32,637 nucleotides of DNA from Desulfosarcina sp. (GTDB lineage: Bacteria > Desulfobacterota > Desulfobacteria > Desulfobacterales > Desulfosarcinaceae), in contig JABZFO010000079.1 of NCBI GenBank assembly GCA_014237405.1, positions 1 to 32,637 of the forward strand, in the 5' to 3' direction. The notes under the pieces were generated by a model. It saw only the letters and a program-made list of their open reading frames with translations, was not told the DNA's origin and made no database searches. Position numbers and translations under genes: made by a program. Positions 21,032 through 32,398 of the stretch are shown here, piece after piece (position 1 is the stretch's first letter; each line of letters starts with the position of its first letter).

Positions 21032-22066
21032 ATGAGACTCGGCATTATCGGTCTTCCCCAGTCGGGAAAAACCACTGTTTTTGAAGCGTTGACCCGCAGC
21101 GTCGCCGCCGACGGCCACCGCCAGGAGAGCCGCATCGGCACGATCACCGTCCCGGACAAACGGGTGGAGACCCTCAGCGGCATATACAACCCCCGCAAAA
21201 CCATCTTCGCTCAGGTGGAGTATTTCCTGCCCGGCAAGGGGGATCACGGCGGAGCCGCCAAGAAGGACCAGAGCATCTGGACCCAGGTGCGGGACAGCGA
21301 CGCCCTGATCCATGCTGTGCGCAATTTCAGCGGCTACGGCTTCGATGCGCCCACGGCTAAAGCAGACGTGGCGGCTATCGACCAGGAACTGATCATATCC
21401 GACCTGGTCGTGGTGGAAAAACGCCTGGAACGCCTGGCCCTGGACGAGCGCAGGGGCAAAAAACCCAATCCCGAGGAGATCGTCCTGCTCAACCGCTGCA
21501 AGGAACATCTGGAAAACGAAACGCCCCTTCGCCGGTTTTGCGACATCGCCACGGCCAAACTGCTGCGCGGTTTTGCCTTTCTCTCCGCCAAGCCCATGCT
21601 GATTCTCTTCAACAACGAGGACGACGACGACGCCCTGCCCGACCCCGCCTCCCTGCCCGAAGGGGAGGCGTGCATGGTGATCCGGGCCAAACTGGAGCAG
21701 GAACTGGCCCAGATGTCCGACGACGAGGCCCAGGAATTTCTGACTGAGTTCAACATCACCGCATCGGCCACGGACCGAGTCGTTCAGCGCTCCTACGACC
21801 TGATGGGCCTGATCTCTTTTTTCACCGTGGGCGAAGACGAAGTGCGGGCCTGGACCATCGGCCGGGATACCGATGCCGTGGAGGCGGCCGAGGTGATCCA
21901 CTCAGACATCAAAAAGGGGTTCATCCGGGCCGAGGTACTCGCCTATGACGACCTCATGGATGCCGGTACCTATGCCGAGGCCCGCAAAAAAGGCACGGTC
22001 CGGCTGGAGGGCAAGACCTATAAGGTTTGCGACGGCGATATCATCAACTTTCGTTTCAACGTTTAA
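21032..22066 (+). CDS. ychF: YchF/Obg-like P-loop NTPase with TGS domain (divergent)
   Basis: A 344-residue relative of YchF/OLA1, a ribosome-associated NTPase. The P-loop reads GLPQSGKTT (residues 7-15), where classical YchF has GLPNVGKST. The base-recognition motif, NVDE in E. coli YchF, is here NNED in LILFNNEDDDD. The last ~85 residues are a typical TGS/DUF933 domain (ISFFTVGEDEVRAWTI, IHSDIKKGFIRAEV, DGDIINFRFNV). The N-terminal G-domain is shorter and more divergent than the housekeeping type (~363 residues), so this may be a second, specialised copy. AGGAG precedes the ATG at good spacing, and a strong terminator follows. It is monocistronic. Confidence 0.85.
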   Translation: MRLGIIGLPQSGKTTVFEALTRSVAADGHRQESRIGTITVPDKRVETLSGIYNPRKTIFAQVEYFLPGKGDHGGAAKKDQSIWTQVRDSDALIHAVRNFSGYGFDAPTAKADVAAIDQELIISDLVVVEKRLERLALDERRGKKPNPEEIVLLNRCKEHLENETPLRRFCDIATAKLLRGFAFLSAKPMLILFNNEDDDDALPDPASLPEGEACMVIRAKLEQELAQMSDDEAQEFLTEFNITASATDRVVQRSYDLMGLISFFTVGEDEVRAWTIGRDTDAVEAAEVIHSDIKKGFIRAEVLAYDDLMDAGTYAEARKKGTVRLEGKTYKVCDGDIINFRFNV

Positions 22067-22113: not shown

Positions 22114-22202
22114 ACGACTTCGTATTCATTAGAGGGACTTTTACTTTGGCCATATCACCACAAAGTTCATTATAACCGATTACTGCAATGAATGGAGAAA
22201 TC

Positions 22203-23561
22203 ATGAAAAAAGGTGAAAAGCTGGTAATTGTAGGTTGCAGCGGCGCCGGGGGACCGGCGGCCATGATGGCAAAAAAGCTGATGCCGGACGTGGATGTAAC
22301 GGTGATTCGAAAAGAGGCTTGCTTTATTGTCCGATGAGCGCTGCCCCATGTCGTGGCCGGTCTGGCCACCCCGAAATCCATTGTGGTCCCTGACAAGATG
22401 CTCGAAGATACCGGCCTTCATGTCATCGTTGATGAAGTCACCAAGGTGGATGCCGCTAAAAAGCGCGTTCAGCTGTCAGATGGCCGCGAGCTTGGCTATG
22501 ACAAGCTGTTTCTCGGTATGGGGGCCAGCTCATTTACCCCGCCCATCGAAGGCATCGAACTGAACGGAGTCCTCTTTTTGCGCGGTCTCTCCGATGCTGA
22601 AAAAATAAGAGCTTACATGGCTAAGAAAAACCCCAGGAACCTGCTGTTTGTGGGTGCGGGATTCATCAGCCTGGAAATCGCTTCGCTGCTCGCATCGGAT
22701 GGGCATGGTTCGAAAAACATTACCATCGTGGAAATGATGGACCGTCCCCTCCCCCTGATGCTGGACGAGGATATGGCGGCACCCGTGGCGGATTACCTGG
22801 AGCAAAAAGGGCTCACCCTCCTGACCGGCGAGACGGTCAAGAAAATCCTCGGCAGCAATGGCGAGGTCACCGGCGTGGAACTCGCTTCGGGAAAGACCAT
22901 TGATGCGGATATGATCTTCATTAACGTGGGCGTGCGACCGAACACCGAGATGGCCGAGGCCATCGGCCTGGAGATGGGAACCTTCGGCATCAAGGTCAAT
23001 CCGTATCAGGAAACTTCCGACCCGGATATTCTTGCCGGCGGAGACTGTGTGGAAAAAATCAATTTTATTACCGGCAAGCCCGAAGGCGCACGGCTTCGGG
23101 GGCCGGCGGTCATGCAGGGCCGTCTGGCCGCCAAGCGGCTGGCCGGCTATGATATCCAGTTCCCAGGCGTGCTCAATGCCGGTGGATGCCAGATGTTCGA
23201 CCTGGTGGTCACGGCCACCGGCCTTACCGAAGCGGATGCGAAACGCCACGGATTCGAAACCGTCTGCGCGGTGGTCGACTCCCGGAGCAAACATGCCATG
23301 ATTCCGGACATGCAGCCCTGGAAGATCAAGCTGGTGTTTGACAAAAAGACCCAGCAGCTCATCGGCGGCCAGATCGTGAGCCACACCATTGGGCCGTCCA
23401 GGGAGATCGATGCAGTCAGCGCCTTCATTCTCGGGAGAACAACCATCGGCGACCTGACTACTTTCACCTCTGCCTGCAACCCGGACATCTCATCGGAACC
23501 CAGTGCGGAACCCATCACCATTGCGGCCGAACAGGCACTGCAAAAATTAAAGAGAGCCTAA
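22203..23561 (+). CDS. CoA-disulfide reductase/NADH oxidase-like flavoprotein, probable selenoprotein (Sec at TGA 22335-22337)
   Basis: Read through one TGA, this is a 452-residue pyridine-nucleotide-disulfide oxidoreductase. ATG 22203 is preceded by GGAG. The N-terminus is an FAD-binding fold (KLVIVGCSGAGGPAAMMAKKL), which the downstream part alone lacks. Codon 45 is TGA in the context FIVR-U-ALPHVVAG; family members have their single redox-active Cys at residues 42-45 in the same NCGLPY-like setting. The frame does not shift across the TGA. After it come the middle region, an NAD(P) motif (LLFVGAGFISLEIASLL, ~155), the second FAD motif (DILAGGDCVE, ~275) and a complete dimerisation domain ending NPDISSEPSAEPI. 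Conventional calling would start at GTG 22353 and lose 50 residues. It should reduce a low-molecular-weight disulfide, persulfide, polysulfide or O2 with NAD(P)H; the substrate is not determinable. The alternative is a nonsense-mutated pseudogene, but the rest is intact. Confidence 0.82.
22338..22369 (+). promoter_or_regulatory. candidate bacterial SECIS element directly after the Sec codon
   Basis: GTGGCC (22353-22358) and GGCCAC (22364-22369) form a perfect 6-bp stem with the 5-nt loop GGTCT. The loop begins 21 nt after the TGA, and its first two bases are G. Bacterial SECIS elements lie within the coding sequence just downstream of UGA, with a short apical loop carrying a G at the first or second position. 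The fit is good; function is inferred from position and shape. Confidence 0.7.
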
Positions 23562-28294: not shown

Positions 28295-28622
28295 CCACCG
28301 GTTTCTTCTCCGACGCGCCCGGCTGCCGGCCTGTCGCGCTGGCTGAAGCCGCCGGACATGATTTAAGTTAAGTCTATCATAGGCCATTTTTCAGCGGATT
28401 GCACGCGGTTTTCCTGATGGGCCTCCGGTTGTGTTGCCATTTCGCCCCAAGGAAGGTATGGCATGACGGAGTTGGTTTAAATAATTGTCGGCTTACCCAT
28501 TTCGGATCCATTTCTTTCTTGACGATGGTGCCTTCATCCCGTTAGTATTTTCTACAAACGTTCCTTTCCAATATTATCTTTCCGGCCCTTTCGTTCAGGA
28601 GGCGTCAACCAGGAGGGGTTAT

Positions 28623-29852
28623 ATGAAACACGTGATTATTGGAAACGGCATTGCCGGCGTATGTGCGGCCGAGGCCATTCGAATACTGGATGCGACGGCC
28701 GATATCACGATGATCGGCGACGAGACCTTTCCACCCTACAGCCGCCCTATGATCAGCCATGTGTTGGACGGCTCCCAGCCCCATAGCAAACTTCCCATCC
28801 GATCCGACCATTTTTACGACGAGCTGAAGATTACTCCGCTACTTGGCCAACGGGCCAGCGCAATTGATGTGGACAACAAACAGGTTCACCTCGCCGACGG
28901 CACCCGCGTCAATTTCGAACGCCTGCTCATCGCCACCGGCGCTGATCCCCGCCCGCTGAAGGCGGAGGGGCTGGATCTGAAAAACATCTTTTACATGCGC
29001 ACCCAGGACCATGTGAAACAGCAGGTGGCAGCGCTGGACGGCGCCCGCCGGGCAGTCGTTCTGGGCGGCGGCCTGGTGGGATTCAAAGCCGCATACGGCT
29101 TACTCAAGCGCGGCCTTGAGGTCACCATGCTCATCACCTCGGGTTACCCCCTCTCCATGCAGGTGGACCAAACGGCCGGGCACATGATTCTGGACGAGTT
29201 GGTCCACCATGGCCTGAAAGTCGAAGTCGGTGTCAGTGCTTGCGCCTTCGAGGGCAACGGATCGGTCCAGGTGGCCGTCACCGATGCCGGTACCCGTCTG
29301 CCCTGCGACATGGTGATCGTCGGCAAGGGGGTGCTGCCTGCCCGGACCTTTATCCCCAAAGATCGCATAGACCTGGACCTGGGCGTGGTGGTGGACGATC
29401 ACCTGCAGACCAGTGCGCCCGACATTTATGCCGCCGGTGATGTGGCCGAGTCGGTGGATATCGCCAGAGCCTGCCGGTGGGTCAACGCTCTGTGGCCGGA
29501 AGCGGCCAGCCAGGGGAGGGTGGCCGGCCTCAACATGGCCGGCCGGCCGGTGGCCTATCCCGGCAGCCTCAGCCGCAACGTTATGCGCGTCTTCGGCCTG
29601 GATGTGCTCACCGTGGGCAATGCCAACCCGCAGGAAGATGCGGGATGCCGGGTTGTGGAAACCGGCGGCGCCGACAAAAAATACTACCGACACCTGGTGC
29701 TTAAGGATGACATTCTGGTGGGGGTGGTGATGATCAACCGCATCGAGCAGGGCGGCGTACTCCGATCACTGATCGAAAACCGGATTCCCATCCGATTGCC
29801 GCCCGAGATCCTCATAACGCCCGGATTCAATTTCGGCCGACTGCTTTCCTGA
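28623..29852 (+). CDS. FAD-dependent NAD(P) oxidoreductase (FNOR) of the CO dehydrogenase operon
   Basis: A 409-residue flavoprotein with two dinucleotide-binding folds: FAD (HVIIGNGIAGVCAAEAI, residues 3-19), NAD(P) (AVVLGGGLVGFKAAYGLL, ~141-158) and the closing FAD motif DIYAAGDVAE (~267-276). It lacks the redox-active CxxxxC pair of disulfide reductases, so it resembles the ferredoxin/rubredoxin- or nitrite-reductase-type NAD(P)H oxidoreductases. It heads an operon with cooF (42 bp later) and cooS (20 bp after cooF). In known CooS-CooF-FNOR clusters this protein takes electrons from CooF and reduces NAD(P)+. The start is ATG 28623 after AGGAGGGG; the upstream in-frame extension lies in non-coding leader. 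Confidence 0.87.
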   Translation: MKHVIIGNGIAGVCAAEAIRILDATADITMIGDETFPPYSRPMISHVLDGSQPHSKLPIRSDHFYDELKITPLLGQRASAIDVDNKQVHLADGTRVNFERLLIATGADPRPLKAEGLDLKNIFYMRTQDHVKQQVAALDGARRAVVLGGGLVGFKAAYGLLKRGLEVTMLITSGYPLSMQVDQTAGHMILDELVHHGLKVEVGVSACAFEGNGSVQVAVTDAGTRLPCDMVIVGKGVLPARTFIPKDRIDLDLGVVVDDHLQTSAPDIYAAGDVAESVDIARACRWVNALWPEAASQGRVAGLNMAGRPVAYPGSLSRNVMRVFGLDVLTVGNANPQEDAGCRVVETGGADKKYYRHLVLKDDILVGVVMINRIEQGGVLRSLIENRIPIRLPPEILITPGFNFGRLLS

Positions 29853-29894
29853 TTTATTGGTTACCAGGTGCCCGAACCACATAAAGGAGGAGCC

Positions 29895-30494
29895 ATGAAA
29901 CAAGTCGTTGTTCACCCTGAACGATGCGTTGGCTGCATGCAGTGCATGCTGGCGTGCGCTACGGCCCACTCGCGCAGCCTGACGCTGTTCGCCGCCGTGC
30001 AGGAGACCCCGCAGCCCAAACCGAGAATCCATGTGGGGGCAGGCCGGTTCAATGAAGGCTTTCCCAACCGCTGCCGCCACTGCGATCCAGCCCCCTGCCA
30101 GATGGCTTGTCTTGCCGGCGCCATCTATCGGCGCGACAGCATGGATACCGTGATGATCAATCCGGACCGCTGCATCAACTGCGCCTCCTGCGCCATGGCC
30201 TGCCCCTACGGGGTCATTCGCTTCCATGAAGATCCGCTGGGTCCGGTCGGGCATGCCATTGCCGTAAAATGCGACAACTGCAGCGCCCGGGTGGCCAAGG
30301 GTCAGGTCCCCGCCTGCGTGGAGGTGTGCAAGGCCGGTGCCCTGACCTATGAGGAGATGGATGCGGCCATGCGGCGAAAAACCCGGACCGTGGCCCGCAG
30401 TATGTCGGTAGATACGGACCCGCCGGCCATACCCGCCGGCGTGGCCCTGTTGAAATCCATCAAACAATCTGAATTGCAGCTCAGCGGCAGCTGA
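29895..30494 (+). CDS. cooF: CooF-type four-cluster ferredoxin-like electron carrier
   Basis: A 199-residue polyferredoxin of the DmsB/HycB type. Four cysteine groups are visible: CVGCMQCMLAC (from residue 11), CRHCDPAPCQMAC, CINCASCAMAC and CDNCSARVAKGQVPACVEVC, enough for four [4Fe-4S] clusters. In CO-oxidation systems CooF docks on CooS and passes electrons on. Here the neighbours point to the flavoprotein upstream as acceptor, since no hydrogenase genes are in view. AAAGGAGG lies just before ATG 29895; the in-frame ATG at 29868 is less likely. Confidence 0.92.
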   Translation: MKQVVVHPERCVGCMQCMLACATAHSRSLTLFAAVQETPQPKPRIHVGAGRFNEGFPNRCRHCDPAPCQMACLAGAIYRRDSMDTVMINPDRCINCASCAMACPYGVIRFHEDPLGPVGHAIAVKCDNCSARVAKGQVPACVEVCKAGALTYEEMDAAMRRKTRTVARSMSVDTDPPAIPAGVALLKSIKQSELQLSGS

Positions 30495-30514
30495 AGCGAG
30501 ATAAGGAGGACGCC

Positions 30515-32398
30515 ATGTTTGATCCCAGAGAAAGCTTATCGATTACCCAGGATGGGGACCGGCTTATTGCCAAGGCCCGGCAGGACGGTATCGAAACGGT
30601 GTGGGAGCGGCATGAAGCCCAGCAGCCGCAGTGCGGTTTTTGCGACATGGGGCTTTCCTGCCGCATCTGCATCATGGGGCCGTGCCGGGTGGATCCATTC
30701 GGCGAGGGCCCCCAGACCGGCGTATGCGGCGCCGATGCCGACATCATCGTGGCCCGAAACCTGTGCCGCATGATCGCTGCCGGCGCCGCCGCCCACTCCG
30801 ACCACGGTCGGGACTTGGTTGAGGTGCTGGCCGGCGTGGCCGATGGAACCGCCGTCGGATACAAGATCCGCGACGAAGCCAAGCTCAAGCGACTTGCCGA
30901 AGAGTACGGCGTAGTGACCGGCGACAAAACCCCGTTGGCCATCGCCGGGGAACTGTCCCAGGCCATGATGGAAGACTACGGCATGCGCCAGAAAGCCGTG
31001 AAAATGGTCGCCCGAGCCCCTAAAAAGCGGCAGGAAGTTTGGGAGAAGTTCACCCTGACCCCTCGGGGCATCGACCGCGAAACCTCGGAAATGATGCACC
31101 GCACCCACATGGGGGTGGACAACAACTGGCAGAGCCTGTTGCTTCAGGGCATGCGCAACGCCCTGTCCGACGGCTGGGGAGGCTCCATGATCGCCACGGA
31201 GGTGTCCGACATCCTTTTCGGTGTGCCCACCCCGCGTCCCACCATGGTCAACGCCGGTGTGTTGAAAGAAGACCAGGTGAACATCGTGGTTCACGGTCAC
31301 AACCCGGTGGTGTCGGAGATGGTCTCCAAGGCCTGCCAGTCCCCGGGCCTCATAGACCTGGCGAAAGAGAAGGGCGCCCAGGGCATCAACCTGGTGGGGG
31401 TCTGCTGCACGGGCAACGAACTGCTCATGCGCCGGGGCATTGCCATGGCGGGAAACCACCTGATGTCCGAGCTGATTCTCTCAACCGGAGCCGTGGACAT
31501 GATGATTGTGGACTACCAGTGCATCATGCCGTCGTTGGGCAAGGTGGCCGGCAGCTACCACACCCGCATGGTCAGCACCAGCGACAAGGCCAAATTCCCC
31601 CACATGGAGCACCACGAATTCCACCCGGACAACGCCGAGAAAAAGGCGGTGGAGGTGGTCCGCTCGGCGGTTGAGAATTACGTCAACCGGGGCAAGGTCT
31701 TTATCCCGGTGGCGCCCCAGGAGGCCGTCGGCGGTTTCTCGGTGGAGACCATCGTAGGCGCTTTAGGCGGCACGCCGGAGCCGCTCATCGATGCCATCAA
31801 GGCGGGCAAAATCCGCGGTGCCGTGGGAATCGTGGGATGCAACAACCCTAAAATCAAGCACGACTACGGCCATGTGACCCTGACCCGACGGCTCATCGAA
31901 AACGACATCCTGGTGGTGGATACCGGGTGCGTGTCGGTGGCCACGGCCAAGGCCGGTTTCAAGGTGCCCGCCGCGGCCGACATGGCCGGACCGGGCCTCA
32001 AAGAGATCTGTAACGCCCTGGGCATCCCGCCGGTGCTGCACATGGGCAGCTGCGTGGACAACGTTCGCATCCTGGTGCTGGTGGCCGCCCTGGCCAACTC
32101 CCTGGGGGTGGACATCAGCGATCTGCCCGTGGCCGGCTCGGCGCCGGAGTGGTATTCGGAAAAGGCGGTGGCCATCGGCACCTATTTCGTCGCCTCGGGC
32201 GTCACCACCCATCTGGGTCCCATGCCTCCCATCACCGGCAGCATGAACGTGGTCAAACTGCTCACATCCGGTCTCAAGGATGTGGTGGGGGCCACCTTTG
32301 CCGTGGAGCCCGACCCGGAAAAGGCGGCCATTTTCCTGCGCCGGCACATCGAAGACAAGCGCAAGGCGCTGGGCCTGGATGCCCGCACCGTAGAGTAG
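30515..32398 (+). CDS. cooS: anaerobic Ni-Fe carbon monoxide dehydrogenase catalytic subunit
   Basis: A 627-residue monofunctional CO dehydrogenase (CO + H2O to CO2 + 2e- + 2H+). B-cluster ligands are Cys49, Cys52, Cys57 and Cys71 (SCRICIMGPC...GVC). The C-cluster set is complete: His262 (VVHGHNP), Cys298 (GVCCTG), Cys336 (VDYQCIM), Cys442 (VGCNNPK), Cys472 (DTGCVS), Cys513 (MGSCVDN), and the catalytic Lys550 (WYSEKAV). The proton-path histidines are in AAAHSDHGRD. At the D-cluster position it has CGFC (Cys40, Cys43) instead of the C-x7-C spacing of Carboxydothermus-type enzymes; CxxC is the form linked to a [2Fe-2S] D-cluster in the Desulfovibrio enzyme. AAGGAGG precedes the ATG. No Ni-insertion gene (cooC) lies within the window, and no ACS genes, so this is an energy or redox CODH rather than a Wood-Ljungdahl complex. 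Confidence 0.96.
   Translation: MFDPRESLSITQDGDRLIAKARQDGIETVWERHEAQQPQCGFCDMGLSCRICIMGPCRVDPFGEGPQTGVCGADADIIVARNLCRMIAAGAAAHSDHGRDLVEVLAGVADGTAVGYKIRDEAKLKRLAEEYGVVTGDKTPLAIAGELSQAMMEDYGMRQKAVKMVARAPKKRQEVWEKFTLTPRGIDRETSEMMHRTHMGVDNNWQSLLLQGMRNALSDGWGGSMIATEVSDILFGVPTPRPTMVNAGVLKEDQVNIVVHGHNPVVSEMVSKACQSPGLIDLAKEKGAQGINLVGVCCTGNELLMRRGIAMAGNHLMSELILSTGAVDMMIVDYQCIMPSLGKVAGSYHTRMVSTSDKAKFPHMEHHEFHPDNAEKKAVEVVRSAVENYVNRGKVFIPVAPQEAVGGFSVETIVGALGGTPEPLIDAIKAGKIRGAVGIVGCNNPKIKHDYGHVTLTRRLIENDILVVDTGCVSVATAKAGFKVPAAADMAGPGLKEICNALGIPPVLHMGSCVDNVRILVLVAALANSLGVDISDLPVAGSAPEWYSEKAVAIGTYFVASGVTTHLGPMPPITGSMNVVKLLTSGLKDVVGATFAVEPDPEKAAIFLRRHIEDKRKALGLDARTVE

Follow-up and report, generated by a model that had tools for sequence, protein, structure and literature searches.

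A predicted selenoprotein branch of the single-cysteine pyridine nucleotide-disulfide oxidoreductase family in Desulfosarcina and its relatives

Why selenium is used in some enzymes whose close relatives use sulfur is an old question. We analyzed a 32,637-nucleotide stretch of a Desulfosarcina sp. assembly (contig JABZFO010000079.1; 'the window' refers to this whole stretch) in which a gene for an apparent flavin-dependent reductase is interrupted by an in-frame TGA. The locus poses two questions – whether this codon is read as selenocysteine (Sec) and, if it is, what the resulting enzyme does.

Decoding of the in-frame TGA

The original prediction described an N-terminal FAD-binding fold, equipped with its own GGAG ribosome-binding site, that a single in-frame TGA joins to a reductase. 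Our analyses bear out this arrangement (Table 1). The 453-codon frame contains just two stops, the TGA at codon 45 and a TAA at codon 453, and the closest in-frame stop 5′ of the ATG at 22203 is a TAA at 22173. Pfam searches of the read-through protein identified Pyr_redox_2, Pyr_redox, and dimerisation domains that cover nearly the full length, across the TGA. The same prediction held that an ordinary gene caller would begin at GTG 22353 and lose the FAD site. Such a conventional open reading frame (GTG 22353 to 23561, 402 amino acids) indeed lacks the FAD-binding GxGxxG, a motif that would be lost if translation began there. This GTG is the first codon of the 5′ arm of the SECIS element described below; a gene caller treating every TGA as a stop would open the protein inside the SECIS and drop its flavin-binding end. 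Across 51 Sec sequences, codons 1–44 differ by 0.24, 0.08, and 0.56 at codon positions 1, 2, and 3, respectively – a position-specific pattern of coding DNA, which fits translation of this segment in frame.

Table 1. Positions of the gene and its features in the window
Feature	Position	Strand	Evidence
Likely ribosome-binding site, GGAG	22194..22197	+	Sequence; 5 bases ahead of ATG 22203
Read-through FAD/NAD(P)-dependent reductase gene, 452 aa with predicted Sec45	22203..23561	+	Frame reading, Pfam, AlphaFold2
Codons 1–44 with FAD-binding GxGxxG-type motif GCSGAGG	22203..22334	+	Pfam; coding-type substitutions
TGA codon 45, predicted to be read as Sec	22335..22337	+	Alignment onto Cys42 (AfNpsr) and Cys48 (phCoADR)
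His49	22347..22349	+	His in 53/53 Sec, Tyr in 6/6 Cys clade members
Predicted bacterial SECIS: 6-bp stem GTGGCC/GGCCAC, 5-nt apical loop GGTCT	22353..22369	+	Alignment, covariation
Glu-Met-Met, codons 177–179, aligned with E183-M184-M185 of AfNpsr	22731..22739	+	Alignment, conservation
S360-x-x-K363-H364 loop, dimerisation domain	23280..23294	+	S360, K363, H364 invariant in 59/59 members
A424-C425-N426-P427, at the AYAP Tyr motif of CoADR/Npsr	23472..23483	+	Alignment, conservation

We examined codon 45 in related genomes. A search of 389 genomes of the class (E ≤ 1e-78, best four candidates per genome) identified 49 genomes with a match and at least 50 rows; among the 50 orthologue rows listed, the codon is TGA in 46 and TGT (Cys) in three, and the frame is broken in one. 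A search of 395 genomes of the phylum, which overlap the class set, likewise considered the best four candidates per genome and listed 11 rows, six with TGA and five with TGT or TGC. Seventeen further contig loci, several from genomes already in the class set, included 13 with TGA at codon 45, Desulfosarcina widdelii and D. alkanivorans among them; the remaining four comprise two distant Cys sequences, one locus unreadable at the column, and one with Thr (a 24% match). The clade is patchy in its distribution, being present in nine of 30 family genomes. The broken frame belongs to L104 (G323:C168), a draft-assembly member of the window's clade (clade A below) that is disrupted beside the TGA by either an error or a real lesion.

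Two proposed checks, for cysteine at this column in Cys-containing relatives and for Sec machinery in the genome, both came out in favor of Sec. The Cys orthologues L102, L103, L105, L126, L127, and L129, as well as more distant families, have their Cys at the codon-45 column. The genome that carries the window has one match above the curated cut-off for each of selA (609.2 bits), selB (366.9 bits), selD (374.6 bits), and tRNA-Sec (75.4 bits). TGA terminates nine of the 20 window genes checked, and as an ordinary stop codon it makes a general reassignment unlikely. In this genome selD (L010) carries an in-frame TGA of its own close to the N-terminus (VKGAG-TGA-ASKLP), with a possible stem-loop after it; SelD proteins that contain Sec are already known (PMC13188914).

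To look for a SECIS, we aligned the window with 53 other loci (alignment A1), setting aside L104, L123, L124, and L128. The 45 nucleotides from the TGA onward align without gaps in all 54 sequences, and RNAalifold predicted on this alignment the same stem as listed in Table 1, with arms at 22353–22358 and 22364–22369, so that the element spans +16 to +32 after the TGA. Stem positions are paired in 99.0% of 312 cells from 52 distinct sequences, as against 16–52% when the arms are slid. Compensatory changes convert the G-C pair at columns 21/33 to A-U in four sequences and a U-A pair to C-G in one. These five cells changed on both sides compare with a shuffled mean of 1.2. None of 500 shuffles reached the observed covariation score, count of paired cells, or count of cells altered on both sides, while the counts of doubly changed pairs and of additional pair types failed this control (130/500 each). 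An excess of synonymous identity also marks codons 50–55, whose mean of 0.49 is the highest of any six-codon window in the gene (gene mean 0.064, sd 0.11).

The published bSECIS model specifies an apical loop of 3–9 nt with a G in the first two loop positions, a stem of 4–16 bp, a loop 16–37 nt from the UGA, and a minimum free energy of −7.5 kcal/mol or lower (PMC13188914). The predicted element has a 6-bp stem and a GGUCU loop 21 nt from the UGA, within a 45-nt segment of −11.2 kcal/mol. A covariance model built from A1 scored 53–62 bits on the four Sec-type loci outside it (L104, L123, L124, and L128). On the Cys orthologues it scored 27.4 bits (L102) and 18.5 bits (L103) and reported no match on L105, L126, L127, or L129. 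The drop is only partly structural, since the score partly reflects shared coding sequence. In the Cys orthologues the SECIS is predicted to be degraded or missing. When folded singly, the window's 62-nt segment showed no greater stability than shuffled sequences (z 0.75), and an Rfam search of the window and the SECIS region returned no relevant family match, so the case for the SECIS rests on comparison.

We weighed these observations against ordinary termination at the TGA, whether as a sequencing error, as a pseudogene, or as a short peptide followed by an internally started 402-residue protein. A 402-residue frame does open at GTG 22353. Termination is hard to reconcile with a TGA kept at codon 45 across many genera, protein-type constraint on codons 1–44, a SECIS 3′ of the TGA, and the lack of an FAD-binding motif in the 402-residue form, and we regard it as extremely improbable. 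The proposal that the TGA encodes Sec has thus held up, with TGA conservation, Cys relatives, Sec machinery, and a covarying SECIS all in agreement. From these lines of comparison the protein is very probably a selenoprotein of the single-cysteine pyridine nucleotide-disulfide oxidoreductase family.

Relation to described selenoproteins and history of the Sec clades

Sec-containing relatives, which had been suspected to be known already, are on record. A 2006 survey reports a Sec 'NADH oxidase' in Geobacter metallireducens and one Cys-to-Sec event (PMC1794560), a 2008 marine survey lists one Sec 'NADH oxidase' (PMC2398784), and a 2022 catalogue lists a Sec 'FAD-dependent oxidoreductase (CoA-disulfide reductase)' (PMC9312934). 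A 2026 catalogue includes this last family with the motif UGxP and counts different Sec motifs as distinct subfamilies; its Table 1, taken whole, contains no UALP or USLP entry for this fold (PMC13188914). The UGxP protein WP_011365774.1 is taken to belong to the same family as the G. metallireducens 'NADH oxidase'. Known selenoprotein genes in D. widdelii PP31 number 38 in the deep-Sep table (PMC12013277). We found that this genome carries a clade A gene (L043) 84% identical to that of the window. Given that listing and L043, members of clade A may already be counted under the known Sec family. For Desulfobacterium autotrophicum HRM2, a total of 31 or more Sec proteins is reported (PMC2702500).

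We built a quick tree of 99 rows, for which the tool issued warnings on long branches and on the composition of clade B rows. We collapsed six exact-duplicate pairs and the second copies L122 (of L112) and L125 (of L102). Neither trees nor residue counts include L104 or the partial loci L021, L054, L058, and L128, and the quick tree also omits L028, L040, L057, and L059. L057, with its many stops, and L059, which is 24% identical and has Thr at the column, were excluded from clade membership. The window protein falls in clade A, a starred group of 59 rows (53 Sec and six Cys; SH-aLRT 99) whose nearest sequences are Cys-only. Its Sec motif is RU[A/S]LPH, with U[A/S]LP in every extracted Sec member. 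Clade B (UG[I/M]P, in the context YSAUG[I/M]PY) holds 14 rows, nine Sec and five Cys, and is also starred (support 100). In the quick tree a starred branch separates the two clades, each of which has Cys-only groups closer to it.

Several differences separate these lineages. The known UGxP family (WP_011365774.1; PMC9312934, PMC13188914) shares the fold family and, judged by its motif and by clade B, the Sec column; it differs from the window protein, which lacks the UGxP motif of that subfamily and has RU[A/S]LPH, the known family being compared through its motif and our local clade B. The clade B Sec sequences are 27–30% identical to the window protein, occupy a separate tree position, and differ in SECIS sequence and stem, those of L060–L067 and L038 sharing a common stem about 20 nt after the TGA that is unlike the stem of clade A. 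By motif and tree position, then, the window clade is separate from the UGxP-type sequences. This kind of Sec enzyme is already in print, and the window's version appears to be a distinct branch. The simplest reading of the tree would be that Sec arose at least twice independently at the catalytic column. An ancestral Sec that was lost repeatedly is a possible alternative to independent gains.

The first branches within clade A are four Cys sequences (LTRCA[T/I]PY); the other two Cys sequences (FIVRCSLPY; L102 and L103) fall inside the Sec members in the best tree. A careful tree, covering 36 of the 53 Sec rows of the quick tree, repeated this nesting, with support of 84/96 for the branch. An arrangement in which the Sec members form their own clade was not rejected in the careful tree (AU p 0.32), and a Sec-to-Cys reversion in L102 and L103 is only a possibility. 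Genome G186 encodes both forms, the Sec copy L106 (clade A) and the Cys copy L103, which are 56% identical. L103 differs from its Sec paralogue in having Cys (TGT), Tyr49, Ser52, Ala305, and Gln426, and its SECIS region scores only 18.5 bits. The window's own genome also encodes a clade B member, L068 (G000:C158:16400-18300), with Cys in the motif YSACGMPY; in this genome the clade B lineage thus uses sulfur and the clade A lineage selenium.

Structure and candidate substrates

An AlphaFold2 monomer model, run on a 46-sequence alignment (A2, from which L102 was omitted because its extracted stretch holds a TAG), has a mean pLDDT of 92.5 and a pTM of 0.89. It places residue 45 in the first turn of a helix spanning residues 44–51. 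Counted along the alignment, U45 falls on Cys42 of the Archaeoglobus fulgidus enzyme AfNpsr and Cys48 of the Pyrococcus horikoshii enzyme phCoADR, both active-site cysteines (PMC7969121, PMC6026696). By sequence and by model structure alike, the best PDB match is AfNpsr (6PFZ; TM 0.91, about 33% identity). NADH peroxidase (1nhs) also matches with a TM of 0.91, and water-forming NADH oxidases match nearly as well as AfNpsr.

We compared the window protein with these characterized relatives. It shares with Npsr the catalytic column (U45 at Cys42), the Arg before it, the Glu-Met-Met at the NADH-selecting E183-M184-M185, and a sulfate-reducer host; it differs in having selenium for sulfur, no AYAP Tyr, and no C-terminal rhodanese domain, the protein ending at residue 452 after the dimerisation domain. 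P. horikoshii CoADR/CoA-persulfide reductase (4FX9, 5L1N) likewise has two nucleotide-binding domains and a dimerisation domain without a rhodanese; the window protein differs from it in Sec, in the replacement of the Tyr-containing C-terminal motif, and in overall sequence (~30% identity). The active-site tyrosines of Staphylococcus aureus CoADR include Y361 and Y419, both named as mutated residues in PDB titles. At the level of the motif, the AYAP Tyr is replaced by Cys or Gly in 59/59 clade members. The best NCBIfam match shown (June 2026) is the CoA-disulfide reductase family TIGR03385, at 268.6 bits against a cut-off of 578.8; clade B L063 (369.6 bits) is also below it. The original description as CoA-disulfide-reductase-like thus stands as to fold family and the placement of U45 at the Cys48 column, but does not extend to the curated CoADR family (269 vs 579 bits). 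Lacking a rhodanese domain and the AYAP Tyr, and scoring below the CoADR cut-off, the protein is best filed under neither Npsr nor CoADR.

The most likely function, which we hold at about even odds, would be the NADH-dependent reduction of persulfide or polysulfide in a cell that produces sulfide. This assignment is drawn from AfNpsr being the best match and from the shared Glu-Met-Met. AfNpsr reduces persulfides and polysulfide, not CoA-disulfide, with NADH and acts as an NADH oxidase in air, and models of it ascribe its rejection of NADPH to E183-M184-M185 (PMC7969121). Counting against the assignment are an identity of only ~33% to AfNpsr, the missing rhodanese domain, the AYAP Tyr changed to Cys or Gly, the oxidase activity of AfNpsr itself in air, and the variability of the Glu-Met-Met: Glu177 is present in 47/53 Sec and 6/6 Cys members, and residue 178 is mostly Leu (42/53 Sec).

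That oxidase activity is one of the points in favor of a second reading, in which the selenoprotein is a peroxide or oxygen reductase of the NADH peroxidase/NADH oxidase type and Sec protects against overoxidation in an O2-exposed sulfate reducer. The structural matches to 1nhs and to water-forming NADH oxidases also fit this reading, as does the name NADH oxidase given to published Sec relatives. It is opposed by a persulfide reductase being the best match in both sequence and structure, and by the GxGxxG loop, where position 14 is Gly in 59/59 clade members. We take position 14 to be the site of the catalytic His10 of NADH peroxidase. In AfNpsr, moreover, per- and polysulfides outcompete O2 (PMC7969121). 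We consider a peroxide or oxygen reductase unlikely. Less likely again is a low-molecular-weight disulfide or selenium compound as the substrate, such as CoA-disulfide or a selenodiglutathione-like species: the top NCBIfam score does go to a CoA-disulfide reductase family, but it is under half the curated cut-off, the AYAP-motif Tyr is absent, and AfNpsr, the nearest solved relative, lacks CoA-disulfide activity.

Gene neighbourhoods did not discriminate among these substrates. Across 70 loci, many with a flank of 1.5 kb only, we observed no conserved neighbourhood pointing to a sulfur role; the largest common neighbour family occurs at eight of the 70 (which include a few duplicates or distant relatives). 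The Pfam names of seven neighbours (NifU_N, FeMo-Co, DsrE, TrmO, CGGC, PNPOx, and ArsP_2) give no consistent story, and a search of a plasmid collection yielded no match at 1e-60.

Within the window, a 344-amino acid YchF-type GTPase (21032–22066) lies just upstream of the reductase gene. It scores 219 bits against a YchF cut-off of 279, and Pfam reports the YchF C-terminal domain only, which makes it look like a diverged copy. A 344-amino acid open reading frame is also found upstream of the D. widdelii orthologue. Elsewhere, 28614–32398 holds on one strand, in a row, a second FAD/NAD reductase (28614–29852), a 4Fe-4S protein (29868–30494), and a long open reading frame (30515–32398) that resembles a CooS carbon monoxide dehydrogenase.

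A mechanism consistent with a persulfide/polysulfide reductase can be sketched by analogy with the family. SelB and tRNA-Sec would decode the UGA at codon 45 as Sec under the direction of the stem-loop immediately 3′, yielding a 452-residue FAD enzyme that probably acts as a homodimer. In this family a helix whose N-terminal end carries the catalytic Cys faces the flavin, and Sec45 would occupy the position of that Cys. NADH would reduce FAD, and FAD would in turn reduce Sec45; the selenolate could then attack a sulfane-sulfur substrate, a persulfide or polysulfide, with release of H2S or a thiol. Bound CoA may serve as the carrier of that substrate, and the SxxKH and A[C/G]NPD loops of the partner subunit may round out the active site. 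Published work on the family describes active-site contributions from residues of the second subunit (PMC6026696, PMC7969121), and we infer that residues 360–364 and 426 are among them. The alignment also suggested an intersubunit selenenylsulfide between Sec45 and Cys425 of the partner subunit; we do not propose it, as residue 425 is Gly in 25/53 Sec members and in three of the 53 none of positions 423, 425, and 429 is Cys.

Sequence differences between the Sec and Cys members of clade A

We next compared the 53 Sec and six Cys members of clade A. Columns 49, 52, 68, 305, and 426 have no letter in common between the two forms. The His/Tyr difference at column 49 is given in Table 1; column 52 is Ala in Sec members and Ser or Val in Cys members, column 305 is Gln or Met and Ala or Gly, respectively, and column 426 is Asn or His and Gln. 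Part of the difference at column 52 could stem from the SECIS, which covers that codon. His49 is not required for Sec as such, since the nine clade B Sec sequences have Tyr there. One independent pair links Sec to His49 when starred branches are used, and two do so when the best tree is used, which does not suffice for a test; the counts were made with the Sec label for both traits, the labels coinciding within the clade. With only about two changes on the tree, the Sec-linked residues constitute a lead rather than a test.

Taken together, we tentatively propose, at somewhat less than even confidence, that these proteins form a separate RU[A/S]LPH subfamily of sulfate reducers that gained Sec independently, rebuilt its active site around selenium, and acts as a selenium-dependent persulfide/polysulfide reductase; Sec and Cys versions would coexist in at least one organism, which might let it switch between them with selenium supply, and one Cys branch could have reverted from Sec. 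We know of no earlier selenium-dependent persulfide/polysulfide reductase. If the active site was indeed rebuilt, His49, Gln305, and Asn426 of the Sec forms would be exchanged jointly for the Tyr, Ala/Gly, and Gln of the Cys forms. The clade offers natural matched Sec/Cys pairs, including both copies in a single genome, and the few other differing residues are named – so the question of why some enzymes use selenium and their relatives sulfur would become testable by swapping one to four residues.
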